This document shows, piece after piece, positions 7,661-41,873 of a stretch of DNA of 41,983 nt. This DNA comes from an uncultured Lachnospiraceae bacterium (GTDB lineage: Bacteria; Bacillota; Clostridia; Lachnospirales; Lachnospiraceae): NCBI GenBank assembly GCA_947588845.1, contig CANQAR010000024.1, positions 1 through 41,983 on the forward strand, given 5' to 3'. The notes below the pieces were generated by a model that saw only the letters and a program-made list of their open reading frames with translations, was not told where the DNA came from and did no database searches. The first letter of the stretch is position 1. Each line of letters begins with the position of its first letter. The translations under genes and the position numbers were made by a program.

Positions 7661-7774
7661 GAATGTGCCAAAGGCACATTCTTTATTTTGCGCAGGCCCG
7701 CACATGGAAATCAGCTGCTGCCGCAGCATGCGGGCCGCGCGGCGAGCAGGAGGGAAGAAATGCCTCCTGCTCGA
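7661..7774 (+). repeat. structured interspersed repeat, copy A
   Basis: It starts with a hairpin, GAATGTGCC-AAA-GGCACATTC, and a T-rich run. It then has GCGCAGGCCCGCA, CATGGAAATCA, an inner GCTGC/GCAGC hairpin, TGCGGGCCGCGC closing the outer stem, and a second hairpin GAGCAGGAGG against CCTCCTGCTC. It lies downstream of the CdaR-like gene in the same orientation. Related copies are at 21557, 27088, 32310 and 41833. Confidence 0.8.
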
Positions 7775-7900
7775 TTTGCAGGAAAATTCGTCCTGTGACA
7801 CAAAAAGTCATATCTTAGTAATACATTACAAAAAATATCAAATAAACAGTGCAAATAATTGTAAGATATACACAAAAATATAAAAATTAATAAAAAGCTA

Positions 7901-7928
7901 TTTACAAACTGGAAATAAGTGTTATAAT
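7901..7928 (+). promoter_or_regulatory. probable sigma-A promoter of the tad locus
   Basis: TTTACA (7901-7906) and TATAAT (7923-7928) have a 16-bp spacer in an AT-rich stretch. The leader to the first pilus gene would be about 150 nt. The rest of 7808-8070 is AT-rich with no other feature seen. Confidence 0.65.
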
Positions 7929-8088
7929 GTAACCACTTTAAAACATTTCAAAATTCTTTAAATCTAAAATTCAAAAGTTCTATGTCAGTTTTGACAGGAA
8001 TCCAATGAGAGAGCATTTGATTATAAGAGAGACAGAAGCAGATTTTCGGGTAGTTTCTGACAGGAGGGATGTGTATGAATCATTGAAA

Positions 8089-8595
8089 ATGATACAGGTA
8101 TTATCGCTTTTGCTGGTTATTCAGGCAGCGGTACTGTACGATCTGGACAGGGGAAAGATTCCAAATGCACTGATCCTGGCCGGTCTGGGGATGGGTTTTA
8201 TCTTCCAGTCTGTGTCGGGTGGATTTACAGGGGTTGTGCTGTTTCTGGGAGGAATTTTTCTGCCGGTTCTGATATTTGGACCGTTGTATTATTTCCGCAT
8301 GATTGGAGCGGGAGATATTAAGCTGATGAGCGTTGTGGGGGCGTTTATGGGTCCCGCGGCCTGCTTTTCCTGCATGCTGTGGTCGGTTCTGACGGGAGGA
8401 GTTCTGTCCTTTGCGCTGGTCCTGCATCACCGCAGTCTGTTTTCACGGCTGCTCTGTCTTGCGGATTATGTAAGAGAGTACAGACAGACAGGGGTGTGGA
8501 AACCATACCTGGAGCAGGCGGATGAACACGCGAAATTCTGCTTCTCCATCCCTGTTCTGATCAGTGTACTTGGCTGTATAGGGGGGATTTTTTGA
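8089..8595 (+). CDS. A24 prepilin peptidase (TadV/CpaA-like)
   Basis: The 168-residue multi-pass membrane protein has the two aspartate motifs of A24 peptidases: YDLDRGKIPN near residue 18 and GAGDIKLM near residue 68. It would cut the leader of Flp and pseudopilins at the membrane. The start is uncertain. AGGAGG at 8062-8067 is best spaced for ATG 8075, which is out of frame and reads only three codons (ATG AAT CAT TGA). ATG 8089 lies two bases after that stop and fits the usual N-terminus; GTG 8071 and ATG 8005 are in-frame alternatives. It is the first gene of the Tad locus and overlaps the next by 4 bases. Confidence 0.85.
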   Translation: MIQVLSLLLVIQAAVLYDLDRGKIPNALILAGLGMGFIFQSVSGGFTGVVLFLGGIFLPVLIFGPLYYFRMIGAGDIKLMSVVGAFMGPAACFSCMLWSVLTGGVLSFALVLHHRSLFSRLLCLADYVREYRQTGVWKPYLEQADEHAKFCFSIPVLISVLGCIGGIF

Positions 8596-9611
8596 GAAAA
8601 AACAAATTTGCGGTCTGCGATCTGGAAGCGTCGTATGCCTGCAGTCTTATGGATTATCTGAATGAGAAGAAAAATACGCCTTTTGAGGTGCAGGCTTTCA
8701 CAAGCGTGGAGAGTCTGATCGATTTTGCGAAGGATAATCCGCTGGAGATTCTTCTGATTTCCACAAAGGCAATGTGCAGCGAGATCAGAGAGCTGCCGGT
8801 CGGGAGAATCATCATACTTTCGGAAGGAGAGAGTCTGAAGGATCTGGAAGAGTATCCGTTTGTATATAAATATCAGTCTTCAGACAGCCTGATCGCGGAA
8901 GTGATGGAACACTACGCCGTCGGCAGTCCGCAGCTTCAGCTGATGCCTTCGGCTCTGAAAAAGACGCAGGTCTACGGGATCTATTCTCCCATCGGCCGGT
9001 CGGGAAAGACTTCATTTGCGCTGACTCTGGGAGAAATTTTGGCGGAGAAAAAGCAGGTTTTGTATATAAACCTGGAGGAATATTCCGGATTTGATGAACT
9101 GTTCGGGGAGACAGGCAGGACGGATTTGTCCGATCTGATCTACTTTGCAAGACAGAAAGAAGGCAATCTGGTCTACAAGCTGAATGCCGTGATCCAGAAT
9201 TTTCATGAGCTTTCCTACATACCTCCGGCGCTGTCCCCGATGGATGTCCGGGATGTCACGGGAGAAGAGTGGCTGTCGTTTCTGCAGGAGATCATCAATT
9301 ACTGTGAATATGATGTGATTCTGCTGGATCTTGGAGGACATGTGGATGAACTGTTTCAGATCCTGAAATGCTGTGACAAAGTTTACATGCCGGTGTTTGA
9401 TGACATTTTTTCCGAGGCGAAGGTGAGACAGTTTGAGAAGCTGCTTCAGATTCTTGACTGCGGGGAAGTCATGAACAAGACCAGGAAGATTACTCTTCCG
9501 ATGCAGATTCCGTCAAAAAGCGGGAGAGATATGATACAGCAGCTGGTATGGGGTGAGATGGGCAGTTTTGTCCGAATGCTTCTGTGGGAGGAAGAAGGCG
9601 GCGATGGATAA
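8592..9611 (+). CDS. tadZ: TadZ/CpaE-like ParA-family ATPase
   Basis: The 339-residue protein has an N-terminal receiver-like domain (about 5-110) without an evident full set of phosphorylation residues. A MinD/ParA-type domain follows, with a deviant Walker A SPIGRSGKTS near residue 132 and YDVILLDLGG as Walker B. TadZ proteins place the pilus machine at a cell site. It starts with TTG at 8592, overlapping the TadV stop (TTGA) after a GGGGGGA site, so the two are translationally coupled. It overlaps tadA by 8 bases. Confidence 0.85.
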   Translation: MRKNKFAVCDLEASYACSLMDYLNEKKNTPFEVQAFTSVESLIDFAKDNPLEILLISTKAMCSEIRELPVGRIIILSEGESLKDLEEYPFVYKYQSSDSLIAEVMEHYAVGSPQLQLMPSALKKTQVYGIYSPIGRSGKTSFALTLGEILAEKKQVLYINLEEYSGFDELFGETGRTDLSDLIYFARQKEGNLVYKLNAVIQNFHELSYIPPALSPMDVRDVTGEEWLSFLQEIINYCEYDVILLDLGGHVDELFQILKCCDKVYMPVFDDIFSEAKVRQFEKLLQILDCGEVMNKTRKITLPMQIPSKSGRDMIQQLVWGEMGSFVRMLLWEEEGGDG

Positions 9612-10845
9612 AGACAGGCTCGGCGACAAAGAGCGATTTTCTCTGATGCGGGGAAAGCTGATGGGACAGCTGGACAATCTGCGAGAGATTGAGGACGAGG
9701 AAATCTACCGGAAGATCGATGAGATCATTCTGGAGGCGGGACAGGAATCCCATATCCGGCTGTCAAAAAGAAACATGCTGAGAAATGAACTGTTTAATTC
9801 GGTGCGGCGTCTGGATATTCTGCAGGACCTCATCGATGACAACAGTGTCACGGAGATCATGGTGAACGGTCCGGATTCGGTTTTTATCGAGCGGGAAGGG
9901 CGACTGATGCAGTGGGACCGCAGCTTTGCCTCCGGGAGCAAACTGGAGGATATCGTGCAGCAGATCGTTGCCAAATGCAACCGGATTGTGAATGAGTCGA
10001 CGCCGATTGTGGATGCCAGGCTTGAGAATGGGGCGCGTGTCAATATTGTGATGCCCCCGGTGGCGCTGAATGGTCCCGTAATCACGATCCGCCGTTTTCC
10101 GGACAAACCGATCACAATCGATCAGCTGATCCGCTGGGGGGCTGTCTCCGCGGAGGCTGTGGAATTTCTGAAAAAGCTGGTGAAGTCAGGCTATAATATC
10201 TTCATTTCGGGGGGAACCGGATCTGGAAAGACGACGTTTATGAACGCACTTTCCTCATTTATCCCGACGGATGAGCGTATCATCACGATCGAAGACAATG
10301 CGGAGCTGCAGATCCAGGGCGTGAAAAATCTCGTCAGGATGGAGGCCCGCAATGCAAATTCTGAGGGAGGAATGGCGGTCACAATCCGCGATCTGATTAA
10401 GTCGAGTCTCAGGATGAGGCCGGACAGAATTCTGATTGGCGAGGTGCGCGGAAGCGAAGTCATTGACCTGCTGCAGGCGCTCAATACGGGACATGACGGA
10501 TCCATCTCCACTGGGCATGCCAACAGTCCGGAGGATATGCTTCTGAGGCTTGAGACGATGGTGCTGATGGGGATGGAACTGCCTCTTCCGGCGGTGCGCA
10601 GACAGATTGCCTCCGGGATCGATGTTATCGTGCATCTGGGGAGGCTCAGGGACAGAAGCAGGAAGGTGCTTGAGATCATCGAAATTCTTGGATATGACAA
10701 TCTTACACAGGAGATCACAACAAAAGTATTGTATGAATTTGAGGAGGAGGGGACAAATGAATGCGGGACCATCCGGGGAGGATTAAAAAAACGGGCGGAT
10801 CTGCGGGACACGCAGAAGCTCAGAAGAGCGGGATATCAGGAATAA
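9604..10845 (+). CDS. tadA: TadA/CpaF-family secretion ATPase
   Basis: The 413-residue hexameric type II/IV-type ATPase powers Flp pilus assembly from the cytoplasmic face. It shows IMVNGPDSVFIE, Walker A SGGTGSGKTT, Asp box ITIEDNAELQ, the VRMEARN arginine segment, Walker B RILIGEVRG and the His box STGHANS, in CpaF order. The start is ATG 9604, inside the 3' end of tadZ, preceded by GGAGGAAG; a longer frame from 9553 is less likely. The last 85 bases also encode the start of tadB. Confidence 0.95.
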   Translation: MDKDRLGDKERFSLMRGKLMGQLDNLREIEDEEIYRKIDEIILEAGQESHIRLSKRNMLRNELFNSVRRLDILQDLIDDNSVTEIMVNGPDSVFIEREGRLMQWDRSFASGSKLEDIVQQIVAKCNRIVNESTPIVDARLENGARVNIVMPPVALNGPVITIRRFPDKPITIDQLIRWGAVSAEAVEFLKKLVKSGYNIFISGGTGSGKTTFMNALSSFIPTDERIITIEDNAELQIQGVKNLVRMEARNANSEGGMAVTIRDLIKSSLRMRPDRILIGEVRGSEVIDLLQALNTGHDGSISTGHANSPEDMLLRLETMVLMGMELPLPAVRRQIASGIDVIVHLGRLRDRSRKVLEIIEILGYDNLTQEITTKVLYEFEEEGTNECGTIRGGLKKRADLRDTQKLRRAGYQE

Positions 10846-11585
10846 GGCAGGATTACACAAAATACAGATTCTCAGCAAAAGAATGGATGCAGTGCGCGCT
10901 TCTCTACGCAGGTCTGGACGCCGCGGTCAGCTATCTGTTTTTCAATTCATTTATCATTTTTCTTGTTTTGTCTCCAGGATTTCTGCTGTTTCAAAAAGAA
11001 TACCGGGCTGGTTTGAAAAAGAAACGCGCGGATCAGATGCGCAGGGAGTTTCTTGACGGGATACAGATGACGGCTGCCTCGCTTCAGGCAGGATATTCTC
11101 TGGAAAACGCTTTTCGGGAATCATTAAAGGAGCTGAGGAAAATTTATTCGCAGGATTCGTTTATCATGAGAGAGTTTCAGCTGTTGTCAGCGCAGGTGGC
11201 CATGAACCGGAATGTGGAAGATCTGCTGGCGGATATGGGAAGGAGGAGTGGAATTGACGATATCCGGAGTCTTGGCGAAATTGTGGAAACCGCAAAACGG
11301 GCAGGCGGGGATCTGATCATGATCTTCCGAAATACGATATCCTGTATGCGGCAGCGGCAGGAGACACTCGCGGAGATAGAGACATGTCTTGCGGGAAAAG
11401 TCATGGAACAGAATGTGATGAGTATGGTGCCAATCCTGATTCTTGCGTATGTCAGGCTGACTTCGCCTGAATTTCTGGAAAGCATGTATGGAAATACGGT
11501 GGGAATCACAGTTATGGCCTGCTGCTTTGCCGTCTATATCGCGGCCGTTCTGTGGGGGCGCAGTATTATTCAGATTGAGGTGTAA
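10761..11585 (+). CDS. tadB: TadB-like type II secretion F domain membrane protein
   Basis: The 274-residue protein has a membrane pair at about 43-75 and a C-terminal pair at about 215-265. Between them is a GspF-type cytoplasmic domain (FLDGIQMTAASLQAGYSLENAF...). It forms the inner-membrane platform with TadC. A strong GGAGGAGGGG at 10742-10751, within tadA, is well spaced for ATG 10761, supporting an 85-base overlap with tadA. The N-terminal 30 residues are basic and poorly conserved in appearance, so a later start cannot be excluded. Confidence 0.88.
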   Translation: MRDHPGRIKKTGGSAGHAEAQKSGISGIRQDYTKYRFSAKEWMQCALLYAGLDAAVSYLFFNSFIIFLVLSPGFLLFQKEYRAGLKKKRADQMRREFLDGIQMTAASLQAGYSLENAFRESLKELRKIYSQDSFIMREFQLLSAQVAMNRNVEDLLADMGRRSGIDDIRSLGEIVETAKRAGGDLIMIFRNTISCMRQRQETLAEIETCLAGKVMEQNVMSMVPILILAYVRLTSPEFLESMYGNTVGITVMACCFAVYIAAVLWGRSIIQIEV

Positions 11586-11588
11586 AAG

Positions 11589-12947: not shown

Positions 12948-12985
12948 GAAAGCCCTGTCTCTATGCAAAGCACGAAGCAATTCGT

Positions 12986-13016
12986 GGGTTTTCTTTCAAA
13001 GAAAAACCCTGTTTTT
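12986..13016 (+). terminator. terminator-like hairpin between tadC and flp
   Basis: Arms GGGTTTTCTTT and AAAGAAAAACCC (one bulged A) are followed by TGTTTTTATG. A small hairpin, CACGAA-GCAA-TTCGTG (12971-12986), lies directly before it. The sequence CCCTGTCTCTATGCAAAG (from 12953) recurs as CCCTGTTTTTATGCGAAG (from 13007), a short direct repeat around the hairpin. It may partly end transcription before the pilin gene or stabilise the pilin mRNA 5' end. Confidence 0.55.
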
Positions 13017-13059
13017 ATGCGAAGGCAGGAGGCAAATTTGTGAAGAAAGGAGGGAATTC

Positions 13060-13227
13060 ATGAATCATCTCAAAGCATTTCTTTATGAGGATGATGGTGT
13101 TGGAGTGGTTGAGATCATTTTGATCCTCGTTGTCCTTATCAGTTTGGTACTGATTTTTAAGAAGCAGCTTACCAGTCTGGTCAATAATATTCTCAGCAAG
13201 ATTGTCAGCCAGAGCAACAGCGTATAA
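13060..13227 (+). CDS. flp: Flp-family pilin
   Basis: The 55-residue protein starts MNHLKAFLYEDDG and continues VGVVEIILILVVLI into one hydrophobic helix, ending QSNSV. It fits an Flp prepilin: a short leader ending in Gly, cleavage before VGVVE, and Glu at mature position +5. It would be the major pilus subunit, matured by the A24 peptidases of this locus. AAAGGAGGG lies 5-8 bp before ATG 13060, the strongest ribosome binding site in the locus, which suits an abundant subunit. It is separated from tadC by 112 bp with a terminator-like hairpin. Confidence 0.88.
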   Translation: MNHLKAFLYEDDGVGVVEIILILVVLISLVLIFKKQLTSLVNNILSKIVSQSNSV

Positions 13228-13286
13228 GGAAACATAAGAAACTGTCGGGCGGACCGCCGCAGCATTAAAAATGATAAGGAGGAAGT

Positions 13287-21369: not shown

Positions 21370-21556
21370 AACCTCTTTTTTGAAAGAAGGCAGCGGACAT
21401 GTCCTGAACGATTCAGGGTGGTCATTAACATATGCAATGAGGAATGTGAAACTATTAAAACAGCGATTTATGTAAGTCCATGATTCAGTATCTCATAAAG
21501 TGTTGGTGATCATTACACGAACAGGGCCCTGCCGACGGCTGATCTTCTGAATATGA

Positions 21557-21717
21557 TCGAGTAGGAGGCGGTTTTCTCTCCTGCTCGTCCGCGCGGCCCG
21601 GGTGCTGCGCCAGCAGCAATTTTCCCTTCCCGGGCCTGCGCATAAAGATAAGGGCAGGAACATCTGAACAGGCTGTTTCGTCTGTGTACAGGCGAAACAA
21701 TGCAGAATGTTCCTGCC
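21557..21717 (-). repeat. structured interspersed repeat, copy B, with murG terminator hairpin
   Basis: Read on the minus strand, just after murG, there is a long hairpin (GGCAGGAACAT against ATGTTCCTGCC, with an inner TGTTTCG/CGAAACA stem; plus 21652-21717). It is followed by CTTATCTTTAT and then the repeat body: GCGCAGGCCCGGG, an inner GCTGC/GCAGC stem, CCCGGGCCGCGC and a second hairpin around GAGCAGGAGAG and CCTCCTACTC. The rest of 21370-21556, between the convergent sigma and murG genes, shows no other gene. Confidence 0.8.
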
Positions 21718-27087: not shown

Positions 27088-27202
27088 AAAAAGAGGACGC
27101 ATGGGCATCCTCTTTTATAATATGCGCAGCTTCGCATATGAAAACTGCTGACGCAGCATGCGGACTACGCAGCGAGCAGAAGGAAAACCGCCTCCTGCTC
27201 GA
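27088..27202 (+). repeat. structured interspersed repeat, copy C
   Basis: It starts with a terminator-like hairpin, AAAAGAGGA...TCCTCTTTT, then ATAATA and TGCGCAG. The outer stem is CGCAT/ATGCG, the inner part is CTGCTGACGCAGC, then GCGAGCAG, and a second hairpin AAGG/CCTCCTGCTC follows. The stem bases differ from copies A, B and D, but pairing is kept. It lies between the convergent MerR and ferredoxin genes, in MerR orientation. Confidence 0.75.
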
Positions 27203-27216
27203 TTTTGTATCGTGAA

Positions 27217-29566: not shown

Positions 29567-30835
29567 ATGACGATTTATGTATGTGAGGATTGTGTGGATG
29601 GAATTTTTACCGGGGTGTACAACGCGTGGGCGAGCCGTCTCGGTCACGCGAATGTTGCGCTGCGTGTAGCAGGTCCGGCGGATCTGGAGCTGTTTGCCGA
29701 GTACAGAAATGTGGAGACAGACGCGCAGAAGGCGCAGAAAGTAGCTGATACGATACGGCGCAGGATGGGCGGGAATTCTTATGAGATGATTTATCGGGCG
29801 GCGCTGGCGAATGCTCCGGAAAAAGCAGACTGTATTTACCGTGTGCTCACGGTTGGACTGTCCTGCCGCACAGATTCCCGTACTGCGAGTCATCTGATTG
29901 AGAAACTGCAGGATGTCAATGCCTGCCGGGTTTTTGAATTTTCGCGGAAGGTACAGAATGAGGCTCACAGATATGAGGGATTTGTGCGGTTCCGGGAGCT
30001 GGATGGAGGTATTCTGTTTTCCGAGATCGAGGCGGAGAATCAGGTGCTTCCGCTGATCGGAGAGCATTTTTCCAACCGTTTTCCGAATGAGCATTTTCTG
30101 ATTTTTGATCATCATTCGGGAGACTGTCTGGTTCATGCGGCGCGGCGGCAATGGTTTATCTGGAGGGGAGCCGGGAAAGAACTGTCAGTGCGGCTGGAAG
30201 ACCGAAGTGAGCCTTTTGGAAGGATGGAGAAGGAAGGCATGTCGGAGAGGCCGGAAGACAGAAGTGCGTCTTTCGACAGGATGAAAAAGGAAGGCATGCC
30301 GGAGAGGCTGGAAGACCAGAATGAGCCTTTCAGCAGGATGGAAAAGAGAGGCATGTCGGAGAGACCGGGAGACCAGAATGAGCCTTTTGGCAGGATGAAA
30401 AAGGAAGGCATGTCGAAGAGGCCGGAAGACCAGAATGAGCCTTTTGGAAAGATGAAGAAGAAAGGGATGTCAGAGAGGCCGGAAGACCAGAGGGAGCCTT
30501 TTGGAAGGATAGGAAAAGGAGAGAATTGGGAAGCTGGTGATGCGGAAGGCGGAAGCAGAAATGTCCATGAGGAAGAGGCAAAAAAGGAAAGCCAAAAGCC
30601 GGGCGGCGCAGGAAAGAAACCTGAAAAACTGCCTGTTGGAAAGGCAGCGGAGATAAAAGATTCAGTGGTCAGCGGATCGGCGCTGACTACAGATGAGGAG
30701 GAGATCCAGCGTCTCTGGCGGGGCTTTTGCTCCAGTATTTCCATTCAGGAGCGGGAGAATCTGCACCTGCAGAGGCAGTTCTGGCCGCTGAAATTCAGAA
30801 AATGGATGACGGAAGGGGTCGGTCAGCAGGAATGA
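29567..30835 (+). CDS. TIGR03915/DUF4130-like DNA metabolism protein with inserted tandem repeat
   Basis: The 422-residue protein has a conserved front (MTIYVCEDCVDGIFTGVYNAW ... FSNRFPNEHFLIFDHHSGDCLVH...W, about 1-205). Its end, IQRLWRGFCSSISIQERENLHLQRQFWPLKFRKWMTE, is conserved too. Members are usually about 250-280 residues. Here about 160 extra residues separate the two parts, including six tandem 19-residue repeats (about 209-322). ATG 29567 is chosen with AGGAGGA 6 bp upstream; ATG 29534 is the alternative. It forms a pair with the radical SAM gene; 170 bp between them contain a 26-bp direct repeat (about 29420 and 29504). Confidence 0.82.
   Translation: MTIYVCEDCVDGIFTGVYNAWASRLGHANVALRVAGPADLELFAEYRNVETDAQKAQKVADTIRRRMGGNSYEMIYRAALANAPEKADCIYRVLTVGLSCRTDSRTASHLIEKLQDVNACRVFEFSRKVQNEAHRYEGFVRFRELDGGILFSEIEAENQVLPLIGEHFSNRFPNEHFLIFDHHSGDCLVHAARRQWFIWRGAGKELSVRLEDRSEPFGRMEKEGMSERPEDRSASFDRMKKEGMPERLEDQNEPFSRMEKRGMSERPGDQNEPFGRMKKEGMSKRPEDQNEPFGKMKKKGMSERPEDQREPFGRIGKGENWEAGDAEGGSRNVHEEEAKKESQKPGGAGKKPEKLPVGKAAEIKDSVVSGSALTTDEEEIQRLWRGFCSSISIQERENLHLQRQFWPLKFRKWMTEGVGQQE
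30191..30532 (+). repeat. six-copy 57-bp coding minisatellite
   Basis: Six in-frame units of 57 bp encode variants of RPEDQNEPFGRMKKEGMSE. Copies 1 (RLEDRSEPFGRMEKEGMSE), 2 and 6 are the most diverged; copies 3-5 are closest to each other. The repeat lies inside the TIGR03915-like gene and keeps its frame. Confidence 0.9.
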
Positions 30836-30960
30836 TTTTTTCTTCCAGTCCTGTATATTTTCTGTAAATCTGTTGATAATATCTGTAAAAATTAATTTCC
30901 GCGGATAATGGTACGCCACAGACCGGCGGGAGATGCGGTTGAGACAGAGGAGACAGAAGT

Positions 30961-31188
30961 ATGCTGGAGAAGAAGATCAGATTAAAGGCCGTGGATGAAG
31001 TATGTGAATTTGTAAGGGCCGCCGAGAAATGTGATTTTGATATCGATATATTTTATAACAGGACAGTAGTCGATGCAAAATCAATTCTCGGTGTTATGAG
31101 TATGGATCTGACAAAAGATCTTACTGTGAAATATGGAACGCAGGACGGCGCGTTTGAAAAAGTACTGAACAAATTTTCGGCGATGTGA
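30961..31188 (+). CDS. HPr-like protein lacking the active-site histidine
   Basis: The 75-residue protein has the HPr fold pattern around regulatory serine 46 (VVDAKSILGVMSMDL). The phospho-accepting GLHARPA motif is replaced by RLKAVDEVCEF. It therefore cannot carry PTS phosphate from PEP but could still be phosphorylated on Ser by HPr kinase, like Crh of Bacillus, which acts with CcpA in catabolite control. The length is slightly short for HPr (about 85-88). GAGGAGA precedes ATG 30961. No PTS genes are adjacent. Confidence 0.8.
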   Translation: MLEKKIRLKAVDEVCEFVRAAEKCDFDIDIFYNRTVVDAKSILGVMSMDLTKDLTVKYGTQDGAFEKVLNKFSAM

Positions 31189-31319
31189 ATCAGGAGCGCC
31201 TAAAGTTGTTTAAATTGTCCAAATTTTCTGAATTATATAAATTATTCAAAAAATTTATAGATGAATATTGGAGAAATTTTTTAGAAAATAAATAATTTCA
31301 GGAAAATTTAAAAAAAGTG

Positions 31320-31348
31320 TTGACAAATGAGAAGCCATCTGCTATCAT
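31320..31348 (+). promoter_or_regulatory. strong sigma-A promoter of an orphan transcript
   Basis: A perfect TTGACA (31320-31325) and TATCAT (31343-31348) have a 17-bp spacer. An inverted repeat, CAACAAA-CACA-TTTGTTG, follows at about 31358-31375, over the transcription start region, as an operator would. Confidence 0.75.
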
Positions 31349-31427
31349 ACAACCATCAACAAACACATTTGTTGTTCCTATAGATCACCTATAGACAATG
31401 AATAGAGGAGACAGGAGGTCGATTCCC

Positions 31428-31508
31428 ATGGACACAGAGGTACGAGCTTTTGCCGTTACATGTGGAAGGATAAATGAATCCTGCAGAAAAGACCTTTATC
31501 AGAACTGA
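31428..31508 (+). CDS. 26-residue small ORF downstream of the orphan promoter
   Basis: ATG 31428 follows AGGAGG (31413-31418) at 9 bp, 80 bp after a strong promoter. The frame encodes MDTEVRAFAVTCGRINESCR and six more residues, then TGA. It matches no family I recognise. It could be a leader peptide, a small protein, or the frameshifted start of a decayed gene. It overlaps the next frame. Confidence 0.4.
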   Translation: MDTEVRAFAVTCGRINESCRKDLYQN

Positions 31509-31659
31509 TTCAAGTGATCGTATGAAAACGATAATCGGAGAGAGCAGAGAATCTGATGATAAGGTGCATTTATCCTTATTTGGAAGAGCAGCATGGAAGA
31601 AGAAGCTGCTGTCGGATAGAGGTTATGCGATGCGCATACCAGTCAGAGAATCCGAGTGA
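31474..31659 (+). CDS. 61-residue hypothetical ORF
   Basis: The basic, Ser/Arg-rich frame starts MNPAEKTFIRTDSSDRMKT with GGAAGG a few bases before ATG 31474. No family is recognised. It overlaps the 26-residue ORF by 35 bases. It may be part of a decayed gene. Confidence 0.25.
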   Translation: MNPAEKTFIRTDSSDRMKTIIGESRESDDKVHLSLFGRAAWKKKLLSDRGYAMRIPVRESE

Positions 31660-32309
31660 TGTGGACAGGCATATGGAGCTGTTAAGGAAACAGTCAGATG
31701 AGAGGACGATTTCCGGGAGAACAGCCAGGTGAGGTTGTCAGAGGACAACCGGGAAAAGAGCGGCTGTCAGAGGAACAGTCGGATGAGAAGGTTGCCGCAA
31801 GAGCAGTCAGATAAAACAAAGGACTGCCGGAAAAGAGAAGGACAGATTTCAAAACGGAAAACTGTCAGAAGAACAGCCAGAGTGAGGAAGCTATTCCAAC
31901 AGGAAAATACTCAGAAGATGAGATCCGGATGAAGGATTTGAAGAGAAACGGGCTGTCAAAGAGCAACCATGACTCCATAAAACAGGAAGGAGCCAGAGAG
32001 CTGCCAGTGTATCCTGTATAAGACGACGATGGAGCGAAGAGCTGCCAGGGAAGCAGCGGATGTACCGTCAGAGAAGACGGACAGATTATTCACACCGAAA
32101 GAGATTGTGAATGCAGAGGATCTGCCGGAAGATGCAGATGATGAGACCTGTCAGATATCCACATGGCATAAAAAATAAAATAATTATATCACGAATCAAA
32201 CGGGCGGAATGTGGACAGCACATATCGTGGTATGAATAATAGAAAGCAGGAACAATGCCCTCCGATCTATACAATTGAATATGGAAAATACAATTGAATA
32301 ATTAATATA

Positions 32310-32580
32310 AAAAGAGGATGTCATGGAGAACATCCTCTTTTACTTTTCGTGCGCAGGCCCGGGAATGGAAATCAGCTGCTGGCGCAGCACCCGGGCCGCG
32401 CGGCGAGCAGGGAGGAAAACCGCCTCCTGCTTGATCACAGGCTGGGAATGGAAACCAGCTGCTGGCGCAGCACCTGGGCCGCGCGGCGAGCAGGGAGGAA
32501 AAAACAGCCTCCTGCTTGATCACAGGCCGGGAATGGAAATCAGCTGCTGACGCAGCACCCGGGCCGCGCGGGCGGGCAGG
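32310..32580 (+). repeat. structured interspersed repeat, copy D (three tandem units)
   Basis: A terminator-type hairpin, AAAAGAGGATGT against ACATCCTCTTTT (32310-32341), is followed by three tandem units of about 88 bp: 32350-32436, 32438-32523 and 32524-32580, the last truncated. Each unit reads roughly GGCCCGGGAATGGAAATCAG, CTGCTGGCGCAGCA, CCCGGGCCGCGCGGCGAG, then hairpin CAGGGAGG/CCTCCTG. The array stops 3 bp before the stop codon of the minus-strand kinase gene. Confidence 0.88.
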
Positions 32581-32583
32581 AAA

Positions 32584-34782
32584 TTAGTCAGTAATCAGTT
32601 TGAATGTCCGCTCCGGATAGTGTTTTTCCAGCATTTCGTGAATTGCCTGATTGCAGTATACCTGTTTCAGCGAAAGGAGTTTATCGAGATTCTGACAGTC
32701 CAGCATATGCTTAGAGACGTCGTCACCTACGAAAACAAGATCTTCCAGATGTTCCAGTGAGGACAGGCACTCAAAATCTCTGTAATAGTAACCGCTCAAT
32801 GTCAGCTTCCTCAGGTTTGGAAGATCAGATGGAGATTCATCATCCAGGAAAAATACTGGTTTATCCGACAACATAAGGGAAACTTCTTCGAGAGATGTAC
32901 ATCCGGACAATTTACTCAGCGGCGGGGAAAGCTGGCTGTAGGAATCCCAGAGAGTCAGATTTTTGACGTCGGTTTTTCTGAGAGCTTCGACGAGGTCATC
33001 CGGAAGGTCGGAAACCGTCAGATTTTGCAGTACAGGCATTTGGGCAAGAAAATCATAGCCATTATCAAACAGAATATTGCATATATTCAGGCTGGATAAT
33101 TTCTGCATTTCAGGAAGGAAGGGAAGGTCAAAATGCAGATTTCCTTCTTTTGGTATAATAACCAGATTTTCCAGATCTGTCTGTGTGGAAACCACCTCAA
33201 AGTCCGAGAGTCCGGTGCCTGTGAGAGCCAGCGAGGTCAGATGGAGCTGGTTAAGTCCTTCCAGACTGTCGAGAGAAATATTGCAGAGAGACAGTTCACG
33301 GAGATTTGGCATGGCGGCAAGATCTTCCAGTGTCGATAATTTGTTTGGAAGAACGTTATCCGGGTCAAAAATATCGTCCGGGCTGAGGTAAGGAAGGGCT
33401 CTGCGATAAAGTACCTCATCGAAATAAGAAAGAATTTTATTTTCATAGAGGCCGATAAAAACAATTCCGCTCAGATCGCGTACAGTCACGGGTTCTCCGT
33501 CTTCTTTGTTCAGGCAGACACGGGCAGCCCTTTCGATCAAAGGTTCCTTAAATGTGTAGATTTTATCCTGATTTTCCAGATTCGACGCAGCCGTCTCCCC
33601 GGTCTGAATTTCTGATGTGTCTGGCACAGTCGCTTCCCCGCTTTGGTTTTCTGATGTGTCTGGCACAGCTGCTTCCCCACTTTGGTTTTCCGCCGTGTCT
33701 GGCACAGCTGCTTCCTCGCTTTGGTTTTCTGATGCGTTCGGCACGGCCACCTTCCCGGTTTGAATTTTTTCTGGTTTTTCAGAAAATCCGTTTTCCGCCG
33801 TCTGGTTTTTTGATTTTTCGGACATCGGGCTGTTAAAGGACAGCATGCCGGAGGAAAAAAGCAGAAAAGCAGACAGAGACAGTGCGGCTGTGAGACCGGC
33901 GCCGCAGAGCGCTCCCCGGAAGAACCATCTTTTTTTCTGCATGCGGAGAGGATGTCTGCCGAGGTTTTCCAGATCCCGGCGCAGTTCTGACGAATTCTGG
34001 TAACGATCCTCAGGTGCAAAACACATGCATTTTCGTATGATTTTTTTGAAGTCGTCAGAAATGCCGGAGTAGTTCAGCTTGTTTATTTCATATTCGCAGG
34101 TGGCTCCATACAGCAGCAGAGCGCCGAGAGAGTAGATATCGGTACGGGCGTCGGTCTGAGAGTAGCCGAACTGCTCAGGGGCCGCAAAGTATTCGCTTCC
34201 CATGCTGGTTGTGTCGCTGTTCCCGTTTTTCCGGTAAAGGCGCGCAATGCCGAAATCGATCAGCCTGAAATGACCGTACTGGTCGATGATAATATTGTCG
34301 GGCTTGATGTCGCGATGAATAACGGGAGGATTCTGTGCATGAAGAAAACCAAGCGCTTCGCAGAGCTGCAGGGCGCATGTTTTCAGCTGGTCTTCCGAGA
34401 GCTGGTCGTCCGGAGAGTTTTCCACAAAGTCGCGGAAAGAATGCCCGTACAGATAATCCCGGATCAGGCAAGCTGTGCCGTCCTCTTCAAAATAGTCCAT
34501 GAATGAGGGAATATAGATGCTTTGCGGGACGTCCAGGCTTTCAAGATGCTTCAGCATTTTGTATTCCCGGAAGGTCGTGTTCTGAGAATTTGTGTACGAG
34601 CATTTCAAAATAAAAAGACGTCCGTCTTTTTTGGCGCTGATAAAGCAGGTGCAGCCGCTTTCCGATTCCTTAAAAACAGACAGAATCAGATATTCAGAAG
34701 TGATTCTGTCCGGCAGAGGAAACGGGACACAGAGATCGGACTGCCAGTTTTTCAGAAATTGATTTTTCTCTTCTTCGCTCAT
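32584..34782 (-). CDS. membrane Ser/Thr protein kinase with LRR ectodomain
   Basis: The 732-residue protein has an N-terminal eukaryotic-type kinase (about 28-275) with ATP-site K60, HRDIKPDN (H156-D158), DFG (176-178) and APE (201-203). It has one membrane helix (about 285-311) and a spacer of four 13-residue repeats of the type AAVPDTSENQSGE (about 345-395). An extracellular leucine-rich-repeat region (about 470-715, MPNLRELSLCNISLDSLEGL...) follows instead of the usual PASTA domains. It probably senses a protein or wall ligand outside and phosphorylates inside. It follows the HTH gene by 89 bp; AAAGGT precedes the ATG. Confidence 0.9.
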   Translation of the reverse strand: MSEEEKNQFLKNWQSDLCVPFPLPDRITSEYLILSVFKESESGCTCFISAKKDGRLFILKCSYTNSQNTTFREYKMLKHLESLDVPQSIYIPSFMDYFEEDGTACLIRDYLYGHSFRDFVENSPDDQLSEDQLKTCALQLCEALGFLHAQNPPVIHRDIKPDNIIIDQYGHFRLIDFGIARLYRKNGNSDTTSMGSEYFAAPEQFGYSQTDARTDIYSLGALLLYGATCEYEINKLNYSGISDDFKKIIRKCMCFAPEDRYQNSSELRRDLENLGRHPLRMQKKRWFFRGALCGAGLTAALSLSAFLLFSSGMLSFNSPMSEKSKNQTAENGFSEKPEKIQTGKVAVPNASENQSEEAAVPDTAENQSGEAAVPDTSENQSGEATVPDTSEIQTGETAASNLENQDKIYTFKEPLIERAARVCLNKEDGEPVTVRDLSGIVFIGLYENKILSYFDEVLYRRALPYLSPDDIFDPDNVLPNKLSTLEDLAAMPNLRELSLCNISLDSLEGLNQLHLTSLALTGTGLSDFEVVSTQTDLENLVIIPKEGNLHFDLPFLPEMQKLSSLNICNILFDNGYDFLAQMPVLQNLTVSDLPDDLVEALRKTDVKNLTLWDSYSQLSPPLSKLSGCTSLEEVSLMLSDKPVFFLDDESPSDLPNLRKLTLSGYYYRDFECLSSLEHLEDLVFVGDDVSKHMLDCQNLDKLLSLKQVYCNQAIHEMLEKHYPERTFKLITD

Positions 34783-35309: not shown

Positions 35310-35359
35310 GACGCTTAATTCTCCTTTTTGTGACCGGCGGGTCCTGGATTTGCCGGTGA

Positions 35360-35376: not shown

Positions 35377-35386
35377 TTTTTACAGG

Positions 35387-35415: not shown

Positions 35416-35438
35416 GTAAATTTTTGATCAATGGTAAA

Positions 35439-35455
35439 AGTCTACAAAAAGTCAT
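35439..35455. promoter_or_regulatory. operator candidate 2 of the HTH/kinase operon
   Basis: AGTCTACAAAAAGTCAT lies about 23 bp upstream of the -35 box. It is a direct repeat of the site at 35360-35376, 79 bp apart, compatible with looping around the promoter. Confidence 0.7.
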
Positions 35456-35500
35456 CCTAAATATTTATAGCAGGGTGTAAAATTTTAATTATTTACTCAT

Positions 35501-35987
35501 ACTTCCCATACCCAAAATGGGATCTGTATCTTGAAAAGTCAATATTTTAGCTTATAGAACAACAGTCAGGCAGCAGCAGAAAGCAGGGTCGTAAAACGCA
35601 GCCAGTTGGTTTTTGTGTTGTTAAGGAAACGGTAAACGGTATTTTTAGAGAACCCTCCGGTAAAGGTTCCCGTTTTTCTCTGTATATACATGCTTCGTCC
35701 GGAGAAAATGAGGCAGAGCAGGTAACGGAATATATCCATGACTGGGATCCCTTTCATTTTTCCGGCATTGCACTGGAAAAGGAGTTTTCCAACATGAAAC
35801 TCTTTGAGGAAATCTGTGACAGAATCAAAAATTCTGCATTGCGTGGTATACTGGACATGGCATAAACCTCCTGCTGTGTGATTGTTTTTGGCGATTCAAT
35901 TATACCACCAGGTACAGGGTTTGTGCCATTTTTACAGGCTAAAATATTGATTTTTCAAGGTTCACCACACCAAATGATGTGGGAAGT
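35501..35987 (-). mobile_element. internally deleted insertion sequence with both ends kept
   Basis: The core ends match: CTTGAAAAGTCAATATTTTAGC-type sequence at about 35531-35552 and its inverted counterpart (core TCAATATTTTAGC) ending at about 35961. Outside each lies a weaker matching ACTTCCCA about 29 bp further out (35501 and 35987). Between them is only a broken transposase N-terminus. The original element would have been over 1.3 kb for an IS4-like transposase. No target duplication is evident. Confidence 0.75.
35566..35858 (-). pseudogene. IS4-like transposase, truncated and frameshifted
   Basis: Reading minus from 35858, a frame starts MSSIPRNAEFLILSQIS and ends at a stop. After a frameshift, the frame from 35757 continues MKGIPVMDIFRYLLCLIFSG, YIQRKTGTFTGGFSKNTVYR, FLNNTKTNWLRFTTLLS. 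These are typical of the N-terminus of IS4-superfamily transposases. The catalytic DDE domain is deleted. Confidence 0.78.
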
Positions 35988-36035
35988 TTGAGCTGTTTAT
36001 ATATTCACTTTTTTTGGTGGGACAGGAGGGAACTT

Positions 36036-39000: not shown

Positions 39001-39977
39001 TGTACAAAGGAACAGAAATTGGAAGCACTGACGAGAGAGAGTATTATTTCAGGGATCAGTGGCAGGGCTGGGAGCGCAGATTCCCTGTTGTATTTCCGGA
39101 AAAAGAATATATTCTGAATGAAGAAGTCGTCTATAGAATTGAAAATGAGACGTATCCGATGGGACAGGCGTTCCCTGTGACGGAAATTAAAAACGCGGAG
39201 ATTGTGCAGCAGGAGGCGGCCGACCCGGCCAAGGAAAATGAAGTTCTGAAGCTGACTGAGAAGGCGGACGGAAAGATTGCGCTGGAAGGACTTAATTCGG
39301 GACGAGCGCTGGTCAGAGGAGAGTTTACCGCAAAAATTGGCGAAGAAACGGTAAAAGAGATATATGAAGACTGGTACTATGTTGAGTCCGTGACTTATGA
39401 CTGGAGACTGGTCAATGACAAGGGATCATATAATGCGCTCCCCGGAAGCAGCCTGAAGTTTTCCGTGAACTTCTGGAAGCAGACAGCGGCGGGAAGCAGC
39501 CTGCTGGGTAAGAACAAGTATACATGTACCTGGGAACTCAGAGAAGGCGTGGATATCGCGGATCTTTCCGGAAAAGGAAAGCTGAAAATTCATAAGGACG
39601 CGAAAGAAGGCAGTTACATCAATGTGTATGTGAAATTTGAATTGAAGAGTGATAAAAACGTGTGGGGAGAAGAGAGCTTCGATGTGCGGGTCACAAACAC
39701 ATATGATAATATTGAAGTGAGCGATATCACGGTGCGCGAGGGAGAGACCGCTGCCGTGAAACCTGTGCTGAAGTGGTACAACGAGGATTATCCGGACGGA
39801 TATACTGAGAAAGACGCGAAATTTACGTATAAGGCGGATCCGTCAGTTGTGCAGAGGATAAAGGTGAAAGGAAAGAAAATCACCGGCCTGAAGGCGGGAA
39901 CCCAGGATCTGATCATTTCCACGGAGAAGAATGGACAGAAGATTGAGAAGAGGTGTACGGTTACAGTCAACCCGTGA
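36036..39977 (+). CDS. large secreted protein with Ig-like repeats
   Basis: The 1313-residue protein has a signal peptide (MRKLKNRTKSALALLLSAAM, then TVGTMSVGWAA). A Glu/Pro/Thr-rich spacer occupies about 60-230 with ETEQTQPEAEEDTEKPE-type repeats. About 1080 residues with several bacterial Ig-like (Big) units follow, for example YKLTWKSSNKEAATIKPD, YTVEWKNYDKNVLKVGSKGK and TGLKAGTQDLIISTE at the C-terminus. Two long internal segments resemble each other (about 375-430 and 795-860: LYPG..W..G.P...YYE.GKEPQVKDNIKFEW). No LPxTG anchor or membrane helix is at the end. AGGAGGG precedes ATG 36036. It is divergent from the kinase operon and directly beside the insertion remnant. Confidence 0.85.
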   Translation: MRKLKNRTKSALALLLSAAMTVGTMSVGWAAEEEVVVVDDVEITGQSETIPALEDLLSGISQNELSVEKMIVEEEKLSAESASEPVQPEVPEASELEIPKEEKEPEIEILGTGEKSEVSGTETSEVSGEESLWPKETEIPEMEKSPETPEPSETEQTQPEAEEDTEKPETEPIQPEAEKEPETPETEEGQEEENQSEKAKEQLEEVRSDTDPETLEQTETVGEDSEIKMSDDGETAAAAESEDNYRINLWDGNNSVYELLPGEQMDLFVEVWKDGEENPLDPSEYKLTWKSSNKEAATIKPDKDHAGLESGQQCATVTAAENLDQSKENKTVITVKAVIGSVTKTETRDIYVHDGIWVITPRDDYGIRLYPGQSWKSGKPKMTYYELGKEPQVKDNIKFEWVYNPDENGKDTYGEEEPVSLKRGKNGGLTVTAEEFNGKNGECGHIDLVATDPENPDFRVSGGFEFEVMYYNEKNLQNNIEGPLYVGDSAAFTVNPDLVDGRLTESSPTVEWEVLEYDEASDKNKPSDNASVKPVSGNKYKAKVTYKKAGSYAVCAKLKIDGKTAGEVWSGNYEVRGETKEYRQRYANDMIPGYTICLEDQSRYYVDNADNPDMEYMLQYQGIKSSDPYVVSVRTENDGKTILQAENKGTAKITGTMIWVDSKGKSHEEDFEVTLYVSDEVYRADLYVKSGGERMFPEDTRQLVLDVWKEEMGSTKKLGAKKYTVEWKNYDKNVLKVGSKGKVTAKKYGETNVTAEITIKKSGYKFQADCWFGVTDGYFNMVPKSIEKNLYPGDVVSLETPSVYWYEQGKDPVVRKDVEFEWRLNPDENRAWNDLDTNIYSLESDEDHNIRSVTVNRMPTQREYEAGKNNLHIEVHAKNSEKSFEMTSEEFDFRVNYVDGRIESEDQENFTGGEQKLTWNGDFQGDSGDLKIKWNIRGQVWDDEKGDFVDAGEDSAASVSAEGKGKTATLKFIKSGDGKGRVFVSATALYKGTEIGSTDEREYYFRDQWQGWERRFPVVFPEKEYILNEEVVYRIENETYPMGQAFPVTEIKNAEIVQQEAADPAKENEVLKLTEKADGKIALEGLNSGRALVRGEFTAKIGEETVKEIYEDWYYVESVTYDWRLVNDKGSYNALPGSSLKFSVNFWKQTAAGSSLLGKNKYTCTWELREGVDIADLSGKGKLKIHKDAKEGSYINVYVKFELKSDKNVWGEESFDVRVTNTYDNIEVSDITVREGETAAVKPVLKWYNEDYPDGYTEKDAKFTYKADPSVVQRIKVKGKKITGLKAGTQDLIISTEKNGQKIEKRCTVTVNP

Positions 39978-40104
39978 CGATGTGAGATTTCGAAAAATGA
40001 GGTGTACTACTCGAAGTGGAGCAAAATACAGAAGATTCAAGTGAAATATTCCTGACGAAATGTCCGGAGAACGTGGTAAGATAATCAAAAGCGAGGGAAA
40101 GCGC

Positions 40105-41727
40105 ATGGGAATTTATTTAAACAGCCGGACAGCATACACGTTATATAAAAGCGAAACAGAGAAACCTTATTTTGTAGATAAATCCAGGATGCTGGAGGAA
40201 TTATTTCCGCTGGTACAGACTGGCAACAACCATATCTGTATTACAAGACCGAGACGTTTTGGAAAAACAGTGATGGCAAATATGATTGCATCCTTTTTTT
40301 CAAAGGTGTGTGATTCACAGCCGGTTTTTCAGAAGCTTCAGATTGCCGATGCAGAGGATTACGAGAGATATCGAAATCAGTTTTTGGTTATTCACATTTC
40401 ATTTAACGAATTGGGCGGAAGATGTGTCTCTTACGGAGATTATATCGATCGGATTGAGAGAAAACTGATCAGGGACTTGAAAAAGGAATTTCCGAAAGCA
40501 GATATCGATGAGTCGGAAAGCGCGTCGGATGTTCTCCTTGAATTATACGCGCAGGATGATGCGGCACGGTTTATCTTTGTACTGGATGAATGGGATTTTA
40601 TTTTTCACCAGGATTTTATTACAGAAAAGGATAAGAGAGAATATCTGCTGTTCCTGCGGAATCTGCTGAAGGACAGGCCTTATGTGCTGCTTGCCTATAT
40701 GACAGGTATTCTGCCGATTGCCAAATATTCCAGCGGATCTGAACTGAATATGTTCAGTGAGTTCACGCTGGCGACAGAGGAACGGTTTTCTGAATATTTT
40801 GGGTTTACGGGAAAAGAAGTGGATCTGTTGTTTGAGCGCTATCAAAAGAGAAGTGGTTCCTCCGGAAAAGTCACGCGGGAAGGACTGCAGGACTGGTATG
40901 ACGGGTATCATACGAAAGCAGGGGAGAGATTATATAATCCGCGTTCCGTGGTTATGTCCCTGACAAATAATAATCTGGGAAATTACTGGACCAGCTCCGG
41001 GCCGTATGACGAAATTTTTTACTATATAAAGAATAATGTGGATGCCGTGAGAGATAATCTCGCGCTTATGGTGTCCGGAAACAGCGTTCCGGGAAAAATT
41101 TGTGAGTATGCCGCAACTTCTCAGGAATTGAGAACAAAAGAAGAAATCTTGTCTGCGATGGTGGTGTATGGATTTTTAAGTTACGAAAATGGAATGGTTT
41201 CGATTCCCAACAGAGAATTGATGAATCAGTTTTCGAATATGCTGAGACGGGAAACGTCGCTTGGATATGTCTATCGTCTGGCGAAGGAATCTGAAAAAAT
41301 GCTGAGGGCTACTCTTGCAGGAGACAACGGTGCAATGGAACAGATTCTGGAACTGACTCATGACGTGGAAAGCCCGATCCTTTCCTATAATCATGAGACA
41401 GAACTGAGCGCTGTGGTTAATCTGGTATACCTGTCTGCGAGGGATATTTATCGGGTAGAACGGGAAGAGAAAGCAGGAAAGGGATTTGTTGATTTCATTT
41501 TCTATCCGGAACTGCCTCCGGCAGCGGATGGAATTATCCTGGAATTGAAGATGGATTGTTCACCTGAGGATGCCATCGACCAGATTAAGAAAAAGAATTA
41601 TGCGCTTCGTTTCACGGAAACTGCGGGACGGAAAGGAAAAATGCCGCATCGGATTCTTCTTGTCGGGATTGGGTATGACAAGAAAACGAAAAAACATCGC
41701 TGCAAAGTGGAAGAAATGAAATTTTAA
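40105..41727 (+). CDS. AAA-ATPase-like protein with PD-(D/E)XK nuclease-like C-terminus
   Basis: The 540-residue protein has an N-terminal AAA-ATPase-like domain: YFVDKSRMLEELF, the family's unusual Walker A RPRRFGKTV, and Walker B FIFVLDEWDF. At the C-terminus, GFVDFIFYP...IILELKMD gives the D...ExK pattern of PD-(D/E)XK nucleases (PF09820/PF08011-type architecture, DUF1703). These genes are numerous in gut bacteria and their role is unproven. ATG 40105 with GCGAGGGA upstream is chosen over 40060. It follows the Ig-like protein after 127 bp. Confidence 0.88.
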   Translation: MGIYLNSRTAYTLYKSETEKPYFVDKSRMLEELFPLVQTGNNHICITRPRRFGKTVMANMIASFFSKVCDSQPVFQKLQIADAEDYERYRNQFLVIHISFNELGGRCVSYGDYIDRIERKLIRDLKKEFPKADIDESESASDVLLELYAQDDAARFIFVLDEWDFIFHQDFITEKDKREYLLFLRNLLKDRPYVLLAYMTGILPIAKYSSGSELNMFSEFTLATEERFSEYFGFTGKEVDLLFERYQKRSGSSGKVTREGLQDWYDGYHTKAGERLYNPRSVVMSLTNNNLGNYWTSSGPYDEIFYYIKNNVDAVRDNLALMVSGNSVPGKICEYAATSQELRTKEEILSAMVVYGFLSYENGMVSIPNRELMNQFSNMLRRETSLGYVYRLAKESEKMLRATLAGDNGAMEQILELTHDVESPILSYNHETELSAVVNLVYLSARDIYRVEREEKAGKGFVDFIFYPELPPAADGIILELKMDCSPEDAIDQIKKKNYALRFTETAGRKGKMPHRILLVGIGYDKKTKKHRCKVEEMKF

Positions 41728-41748
41728 ACGAATGGGGCTGTCGGTGTT

Positions 41749-41832
41749 ATATCAGATGGGGATGACTTCCGCCTCTTCAGGCGGTGAGTGATAAACCCGT
41801 ATCAGTGGCGGGATTCAATCCCCATCTGATAT
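41749..41832 (+). ncRNA. 84-nt three-way-junction structured element
   Basis: A perfect 15-bp closing stem (ATATCAGATGGGGAT against ATCCCCATCTGATAT) encloses two hairpins: CCGCCT-CTTC-AGGCGG (41769-41784) and CCCG/CGGG (41796-41812). The form and the bases around TGAGTGATAAACCCG resemble 3' ends of IS200/IS605-type elements and their guide RNAs. No TnpA or TnpB gene is present, so a lone remnant or an independent RNA is possible. Confidence 0.6.
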
Positions 41833-41873
41833 GCGGGCCGCGCAGGCGGGCAGGAGGAAAAACCGCCTCCTAC
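41833..41873 (+). repeat. structured interspersed repeat, copy E (partial)
   Basis: GCGGGCCGCGCAGGCGGGCAG and the hairpin AGGAGG-AAAAACC-GCCTCCT match the distal half of copies A-D. The proximal half is replaced by the three-way-junction element ending at 41832. It lies after the AAA-ATPase gene in the same orientation. The remaining bases to 41983 hold a small AAGCCAG/CTGGCTT hairpin and no gene. Confidence 0.7.

Follow-up and report, generated by a model that had tools for sequence, protein, structure and literature searches.

A terminator-associated repeat of gut Lachnospiraceae ends in a group IIC intron-like domain VI and is a candidate miniature non-autonomous retroelement

The window analysed here, a stretch of 41,983 nucleotides from an uncultured Lachnospiraceae bacterium, contains several copies of a short repeat made up of a 5' UGCGC, a left hairpin and, at the 3' end, a domain VI-like (D6-like) right hairpin. 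Comparison of its copies and of their sites makes it likely that this element is a miniature non-autonomous retroelement, one that either descends from a bacterial group IIC intron or imitates its ends. The match of its right hairpin to domain VI of these introns, its placement behind terminators and the compensatory evolution of its stems are the main lines of evidence considered below.

Results

Architecture and spread of the element

The two-hairpin repeat measures 82-90 nt in the 90 copies measured, about 86 nt being typical. Its left hairpin occurs in a few recurrent variants within one architecture common to the copies, and tandem arrays and subfamilies are present. Searching the window's genome and its relatives with the R1 model returned at least 150 matches in the former and matches in 34 of the 47 genomes of its genus. 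Numbers of R1 matches per genome range from 0 to at least 95 across one genus, and four genomes hold between 95 and at least 150 copies each. Judged from these copies, the element multiplies as a unit. Neither a phage collection nor a set of viral contigs yielded any match, while a plasmid search gave four weak ones, all from Roseomonas; in an Rfam scan of the window tRNAs alone reached gathering scores. No copy was found with a gene between its two hairpins, and about 7 of the 37 candidates listed looked, by eye, like left-only, truncated copies. A literature search, with most subscription journals outside its coverage, found neither a report of such an element nor a bacterial precedent of comparably small size.

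An initial annotation of the window had described a family of structured repeats at five loci, all of which carry the element (Table 1; the R1 matches at the D array together span 32350-32604). It had also counted as a copy the unit upstream of copy A, termed A', which does have the left hairpin of the element (TGCGCA..GGAAA..GCTGC/GCAGC..GCGC) but differs in its 3' part and is a related, distinct element.

Table 1. Element copies and associated features in the window
Feature	Positions	Strand	Basis
Element-2 (A'), related, same left-hairpin architecture, different 3' part	7608..7686	+	R1 39.1 bits, E 3.7e-5
Stem-loop and T-run immediately 5' of copy A (3' part of A')	7660..7688	+	sequence
Copy A, full element, left hairpin and D6-like right hairpin, 3' end CTGCTCGAT	7689..7775	+	R1 101.3 bits
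Copy B, full element, 3' end CCTACTCGAT	21556..21642	-	R1 104.2 bits
Terminator-like stem-loop preceding copy B	21652..21717	-	sequence
Intrinsic terminator AAAAAGAGGACG..ATCCTCTTTT preceding copy C	27088..27122	+	sequence
Copy C, full element, diverged	27123..27203	+	R1 64.6 bits
Intrinsic terminator preceding the D array	32309..32349	+	sequence
Copy D1, full element	32350..32435	+	R1 103.7 bits
Copy D2, tandem unit, head-to-tail	32436..32520	+	R1 70.7 bits (match span 32434-32520); repeats
Copy D3, third tandem unit, most of right hairpin gone	32521..32582	+	R1 54.6 bits (match span 32519-32604)
Terminator-like stem TATCAGATGGGGAT..ATCCCCATCTGATA preceding copy E	41750..41829	+	sequence
Copy E, lacking the left half	41830..41876	+	R1 27.1 bits, weak, E 0.0065

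The base changes quoted earlier for the outer stem are present in the copies, and the covariation proposed from them held strongly in an alignment of 74 copies from several species. Both bases vary in 17 of the 28 pairs, compared with 11.4 after shuffling and 9 in the best slid register; the number of double-change cells is 252, against 98 and 37, respectively. These counts show that the structure of the element is conserved by compensatory change.

The element follows terminators

Of 100 distinct element sites, 90 have a stem-loop on the 5' side, compared with 112 of 600 control TTTTA sites. With a stem score of at least 20 the figures are 83/100 for distinct element sites, 30/600 for control TTTTA[TC] sites (sampled out of 1,567) and 1/100 for shuffles; a cruder terminator test, now superseded, had given 49/100 against 7/300 shuffles. 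Placement is not random, and the selected structure and terminator linkage suggested initially are both supported, the covariation test not having refuted them. The left junction reads TTTTA/TGCGCAG, the base preceding TGCGC being A, not G, at 88 of 100 sites; the 3' end finishes in ..CGAT, followed mostly by a pyrimidine at +1, position -1 being mostly A.

Four of the window's five loci bear out the claim that every copy is co-oriented with the gene before it; the exception is locus D (32350), where no co-oriented ORF of at least 80 aa was found within 1.5 kb upstream. Among 48 copies drawn from 61 R1 matches by removing repeats and most weak ones, a crude ORF caller placed the upstream ORF in the same orientation in 37 cases and in the opposite one in 7, and called none in 4. 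The terminator itself is a tighter placement rule than gene orientation.

Target duplications of 1-7 nt never exceeded the highest shuffle among 76 non-tandem copies, and a TTA duplication suspected at one site (L041 compared with L215 and L225) was not upheld over this set. Orthologous sites differ in occupancy, that of copy C being devoid of the element in genome G006, and the unoccupied ones leave the exact insertion point unfixed. Truncation at the 5' end was not taken to indicate target-primed reverse transcription, because deletion between short direct repeats explains both cases seen; the loss of the left half of copy E would be explained by deletion between two ATGCG repeats. Taken across sites, the element keeps one orientation relative to the stem-loop and T-run that precede it, without target duplication.

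The right hairpin matches domain VI of group IIC introns

A covariance model (R3) was built from 16 group IIC intron domain VI sequences alone. In 730,638 bases it gave 26 matches at E<=1, all 26 on right ends of elements and in the 3' register (24 assigned by script and two, diverged tandem units, by eye). All 26 matches in a further 133,790 bases also fell on elements (25 by script, L018 by eye), compared with three matches, best E 0.32, in a control set of 183,476 bases. Within the window, R3 matches copy A at 7742-7775 (E 0.52). The 16 bases of the intron 3' end, CCGCCTCCTACTCGAT, are identical in 10 of 90 readable element ends, and an exact intron 9-mer is present in 36 of the 90. Two D6 forms, GAG..CTC and GGA..TCC, occur in elements and introns alike. 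Model and motif matches together identify the right hairpin as domain VI of group IIC introns, a correspondence that went unseen in the initial annotation, which proved partly right overall. This identity accounts for the terminator target too, class C introns being described as targeting terminators in PMC8919778, PMC4424553 and PMC10190682.

At the other end, the 5' TGCGC of the element resembles the GTGCGC of the introns, whose 5' ends form GTGCGCC..GCGCAC hairpins. All eight intron 5' flanks read have a stem score of at least 20, and a pyrimidine occupies +1 at 29 of 34 intron ends (the spurious L309 left out); A stands at -1 in three of eight introns, compared with mostly A for elements. 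Beyond UGCGC, the left hairpin of the element has no clear intron counterpart. A reading of this hairpin as domain V (D5) was dropped, one weak R2 match to the D5-D6 of L263 (16.1 bits) having found no further support. The D5 motif of these IIC introns is present in none of 101 element copies. No element matched the Rfam D5-D6 model (RF00029), which is weak evidence since, of the 16 IIC intron loci to which it was applied, the same model matches just one. A further R2 match, weak and partial, was obtained in L279 (24.4 bits). The element is without D1-D4 and too short for an RT; the absence of D1-D4 means that it would not reverse splice by self-catalysis. Complementarity of at least 5 nt between its internal loop and the T-run was found in 84 of 100 cases, compared with 47% for shuffled loops.

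Group IIC introns as candidate helpers

The intron-encoded protein is a group II RT/maturase with no endonuclease match. The window's genome contains at least four IIC introns, interrupted by contig ends. The D6 of these resident introns is of the GGA form and their +1 base is G or A, whereas most elements of that genome are of the GAG form with a +1 pyrimidine. Elements follow an intron immediately in L256 and at a short distance in L348. Genomes G002, G016, G018 and G023 have IIC introns and no element matches, while elements are present and RT matches absent in G006, G011, G012, G020, G047 and G053. PF00078 has a single match in the window's genome, to a DGR-like RT (type assigned by eye), to which a protein search adds a fragment of a IIC RT where a contig ends. 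The RT of L278 was set aside as a partner, since by eye its surroundings are phage-like and include adjacent DGR-like repeats.

Discussion

We propose that the element has kept UGCGC at its 5' end, one hairpin on the left and the 3' domain VI, and would have lost recognisable D1-D5 and the RT gene. Its RNA may be taken up through domain VI by the RT/maturase of a IIC intron, or by the whole RNP; insertion into terminator DNA in its single-stranded form, and copying, would follow. The element would thereby parasitise the IIC intron as SINEs parasitise LINEs and is probably mobilised in trans by a candidate IIC helper. More speculatively, the purine-rich internal loop (GGAAA) may pair with the T-run and guide the element in the manner of EBS1. 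Weighing against this reading are the left hairpin, the first base other than G, the D6 form and +1 base of the resident introns, and the genomes that have IIC introns but no element matches, or elements but no RT match.

Mobility had been suggested before in the form of a REP-like unit; mobility itself holds by inference, whereas a REP-like unit in the RAYT sense is not supported, since a GT[AG]G foot is absent and the element bounds no Y1-transposase gene. A Y1 transposase (IS200/IS605 or RAYT) that recognises the hairpins and moves a MITE- or REP-like DNA element in single-stranded form would fit the two terminal hairpins, the lack of target duplication, the fixed strand and the intergenic sites. 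The evidence from loci, flanks and genome distribution nonetheless led us to reject this partner: two of the seven Y1 loci searched in the window's genome (L022, L023) have an element 1.2-1.4 kb from a Y1 piece, which does not bound the gene; R1 matches are absent from all 26 Y1 loci in other genomes; 17 Y1 genes whose flanks were inspected by eye bear other hairpins; genomes G003, G006, G012, G015 and G045 carry the element with no Y1 match, and Y1 occurs without any element match in G017, G019, G021, G023 and G024. As no guide tetranucleotide was seen and the domain VI match is left unexplained, this reading is very unlikely.

An immobile 3' UTR element selected gene by gene, be it an mRNA 3'-end protector, a backup terminator or an RNA sponge, would sit behind terminators and evolve by strong compensation as observed, but the variation in matches among species of one genus, the differing occupancy of orthologous sites, the tandem arrays and subfamilies, and the unexplained intron-like end make it highly improbable. 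The 3' end and kind of target shared with introns would equally be expected of genomic fossils of full IIC introns that lost their middles independently; covarying subfamilies would not, and the single architecture, narrow size range and recurrent left-hairpin variants leave this explanation scarcely probable. Finally, an unrecognised class of element, dependent on another RT or a recombinase, may have acquired through recombination both a IIC domain VI and the targeting of terminators. The left hairpin favours such capture of the 3' end alone, in that it resembles introns only in UGCGC; yet the 5' UGCGC, the stem-loop target and the +1 pyrimidine jointly agree with introns, and the RTs matched in the window's genome are the DGR-like one and the IIC fragment, so that we give capture very little credence.

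We lean, by a small degree, towards the broader proposition that bacteria contain ultra-miniature group II intron derivatives. These would be RNAs of about 86 nt with a UGCGC end, a hairpin that bears the guide, and domain VI; in function they would correspond to a bacterial SINE and in structure to Euglena group III introns. IIC machinery would spread them in trans to more than 100 terminators per genome, and their internal loop would be a minimal EBS1 that recognises the T-run. If true, they would provide a tractable bacterial system for the way in which ribozyme introns lose their core and become dependent on factors supplied in trans, as has been proposed for group III introns, and would reveal the minimum that the machinery of a IIC intron requires of it. 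Terminators across these gut Lachnospiraceae would then be marked by a mobile RNA structure.

Comparison with known systems

Target-site duplication, the hallmark of DDE-transposon MITEs, was not found at the 76 non-tandem copies. Integron attC ends carry GTTRRRY and RYYYAAC boxes, both absent from the A3 consensus ends of the element. In eukaryotic SINE-LINE pairs a non-autonomous element shares its 3' end with an autonomous retroelement; the present element differs in being bacterial and in its group II machinery and DNA stem-loop target. Group IIC (bacterial-C) introns have in common with it the sequence and fold of domain VI, a 3' AY end, a 5' UGYG and a stem-loop or terminator target in a single orientation, but they are about 1.9 kb long (L254, L298), whereas the element has about 86 nt, no RT, no recognisable D1-D5, a first base other than G and, in four genomes, 95 to at least 150 copies. 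REP/RAYT sequences are likewise short, palindromic, intergenic and multicopy and are presented as thought mobile in trans (PMC6006769); the element departs from them in its lack of a GT[AG]G foot, in the RAYT partner not found and in its intron-like end and target. The ORF-less TeI3 group II introns of Thermosynechococcus are described as non-autonomous, mobilised in trans and in need of another intron's protein after loss of their ORF, yet still as intron ribozymes (PMC2882425), unlike the element, which is without a ribozyme core. Closest in size are the group III introns of Euglena chloroplasts, given as about 90-120 nt with DVI kept and no DV, and as numbering, together with degenerate group II copies, more than 150 (PMC4424553); at 82-90 nt the element is slightly shorter, with DVI present and the DV motif absent. 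The Euglena introns are reported to be spliced and to lie inside organelle genes (PMC4424553), whereas the element sits behind bacterial terminators.

Layout, fold and distribution of the element

Reading the sequence at each of the five loci listed by the initial annotation bore out the shared layout described there. The unit runs [stem-loop + T-run]TTTTA/TGCGC-A-GGCCCGGG-internal loop (..GGAAA..)-GCTGC TGRC GCAGC-A-CCCGGGCC-GCGC-gg-CGAGCAGGAGG-loop-CCTCCTGCTCGAT/Y (slashes mark the element's ends), and in the window it is present as copies A, B and C, as three tandem copies (D1-D3) and as half a copy (E), alongside one related element (A'). The tandem units, separated by small spacers, look like local duplications. 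Ahead of locus D, 1.4 kb (30919-32309) lacks any ORF of at least 80 aa and carries several short overlapping frames resembling decayed coding sequence.

The compensatory stem changes proposed by the same annotation held up over 74 copies: 17 of 28 pairs displayed double-sided change, against 11.4 after shuffling and no more than 9 after sliding; a covariation score of 0.318 compares with 0.152 and no more than 0.096, respectively; and 95.2% of cells paired (shuffled, 85.7%), the slid control being the safer one as related copies inflate the shuffle tests. Among 80 distinct sequences of the gapless 52-nt left hairpin, the top three corrected mutual-information values fell on stem pairs and the fourth did not, only free positions counting since the collecting pattern fixed some stem positions. 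An initial set of 28 copies, all taken from the window's genome, gave a less clear picture by two measures: its count of double-change pairs was equalled or exceeded in 62 of 500 shuffles, and that of further pair types in 437 of 500.

A covariance model built on 28 copies (R1) matched the window's genome (5.06 Mb, 280 contigs) at least 150 times and was positive in 16 of 41 genomes, one of them (G031) from outside the genus, in another family of the same order, with two matches (best E 7.8e-6). Of 47 genomes of the genus, 34 (including that of the window) had matches to a broader model of 74 copies (R2), at least 95 in each of four genomes; the other 13 had zero. A degenerate element pattern matched at least 100 times over GTDB contigs; the 80 records among the matches listed come from MAGs labelled Lachnospiraceae, Clostridiales, Eubacterium, Roseburia, Clostridiaceae or simply 'bacterium'.

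Target site and insertion

The 100 distinct 5' flanks are T-rich at -6 to -2 (71-87%), with A at -1 in 88%. A stem-loop scoring at least 16 precedes the element at 90 of 100 sites (controls: 112 of 600 TTTTA[TC] sites, 17 of 100 shuffles), and one scoring at least 20 at 83 (controls: 30 of 600 and 1 of 100). In 76 non-tandem copies, retained from 143 after dropping those followed by a tandem unit, the +1 base is T (68%) or C (26%), and no target duplication of 1-7 nt rose above shuffles. Orthologous sites in relatives are both occupied and unoccupied, as exemplified by copy C against G006 and L041 against G006 and G045; in most of the 42 aligned pairs, strong divergence, remnants or additional repeats prevent exact placement of the junction. 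As judged from sequence, the element multiplies as a unit, without target duplication and with a conserved fold.

A right end matching group IIC domain VI

Group II introns of the same genus and family that match RF02001 (D1-D4-3) and carry a reverse transcriptase (RT) in a 485-aa frame end in ..GTGAGAGGACGGCGGCTAATCACCGCCTCCTACTCGAT/ or ..GTGGAAGGGGGACTAATCATCCCCCTATCCGAT/, and elements in ..CCGCCTCCTACTCGAT or ..CCCTATCCGAT. In one intron (L254) the encoded protein combines RT and maturase domains and belongs with the group II RT family by its matches, among which no endonuclease domain is listed. From this protein and from the stem-loop sites of the introns (8 of 8 flanks) we infer that these are group IIC introns, in agreement with passages of PMC4424553. 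Their 5' ends form GTGCGCC(C)GGCGG(G)CGCAC hairpins that may be set beside the TGCGC..GCGC hairpin of the element, the pattern that located them having itself demanded TGCG. The right end was readable in 90 of 101 element copies, 36 of which carry an exact intron 9-mer, the final bases being biased by a search that demanded C[CT][CT]GAT or CGAT.

An independent test was provided by R3, a covariance model of 16 distinct intron domain VI (D6) sequences and zero elements (17 found, L288 omitted; several introns known by their 3' part only). Over the window and 99 of 100 pattern loci (L213 omitted), all 26 matches at E<=1 lay on element right ends, tandem copies included; 51 more loci again gave 26 of 26, and 59 loci chosen as controls, whose screening for elements was incomplete, yielded three (best E 0.32). 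Individual matches are mostly weak (best E 0.00019), and the weight of the test is in their position rather than in single scores. At L256 (905-987, minus) an element adjoins a group IIC intron 3' end (CCGAT/TGCGCACGG..), like element-element abutment in arrays.

Candidate helper introns and other repeats

Four exact copies of the IIC domain V motif occur in the window's genome, none more than 52 bases from a contig end, and a further contig end holds a 27-aa RT fragment (81% identical). This genome therefore appears to hold several IIC introns, which probably broke the assembly. An element copy sits just behind the intron 3' end at L348. Speaking against a simple helper story, the D6 of these introns is of the GGA form and is followed by G, A, G and G, unlike most elements there; four genomes (G002, G016, G018, G023) have IIC introns and no element matches, and six element-bearing ones (G006, G011, G012, G020, G047, G053) gave no RT match. 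Introns absent from element-bearing genomes may be unassembled or lost. A further RT of 411 aa (L278, G000:C92) neighbours variable-repeat-like frames within a phage-like region and is, by eye, probably a diversity-generating retroelement.

A second repeat family comprises a CACAGGAAATTTCGTCCTGTGACAC hairpin, GCCTCCGGC, a TGCGCA..GGAAA..GCNGC..GCGC left hairpin of the element's design and a variable terminator-like hairpin. It often has element copies before or after it and is possibly another intron-derived family; its 3' end differs from CGAT.

Coordinates of intron ends and additional repeats
Feature	Location	Context
Second repeat family	window 7568-7686; L012 about 430-566; L023 about 2280-2650	
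Five in-register copies, 57-nt spacing	window 30126-30521	inside DUF4130 gene
Four copies, 39-nt spacing	window 33588-33782	in protein-kinase-domain gene 32584-34782 (minus)
35-nt inverted repeat, 83% complementary, 370 nt apart	window 35525-35559 and 35930-35964	upstream of 1332-aa ORF
Group IIC intron 3' ends	G000 contigs C30, C130, C153, C234 (L348-L351)	contig ends

Mechanism and relation to known systems

At the sequence level, domain VI and the kind of target are common to the element and IIC introns. IIC machinery would recognise the element RNA via domain VI and insert it at terminators in single-stranded DNA; terminator targeting finds support in parts of PMC8919778, PMC4424553 and PMC10190682. 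More speculatively, the GG(A)-rich internal loop would pair with the T-run: at least five contiguous pairs form in 84 of 100 copies, versus 47% with shuffled loops, a figure that hints only weakly at a guide loop because any purine-rich loop easily matches a T-run. Our literature search found no report of such an element. Lacking domain V and any recognised D1-D4, it does not qualify as a group II intron but has the 3' end and target of one; among known systems it comes nearest to ORF-less introns mobilised in trans and to the group III introns of Euglena.
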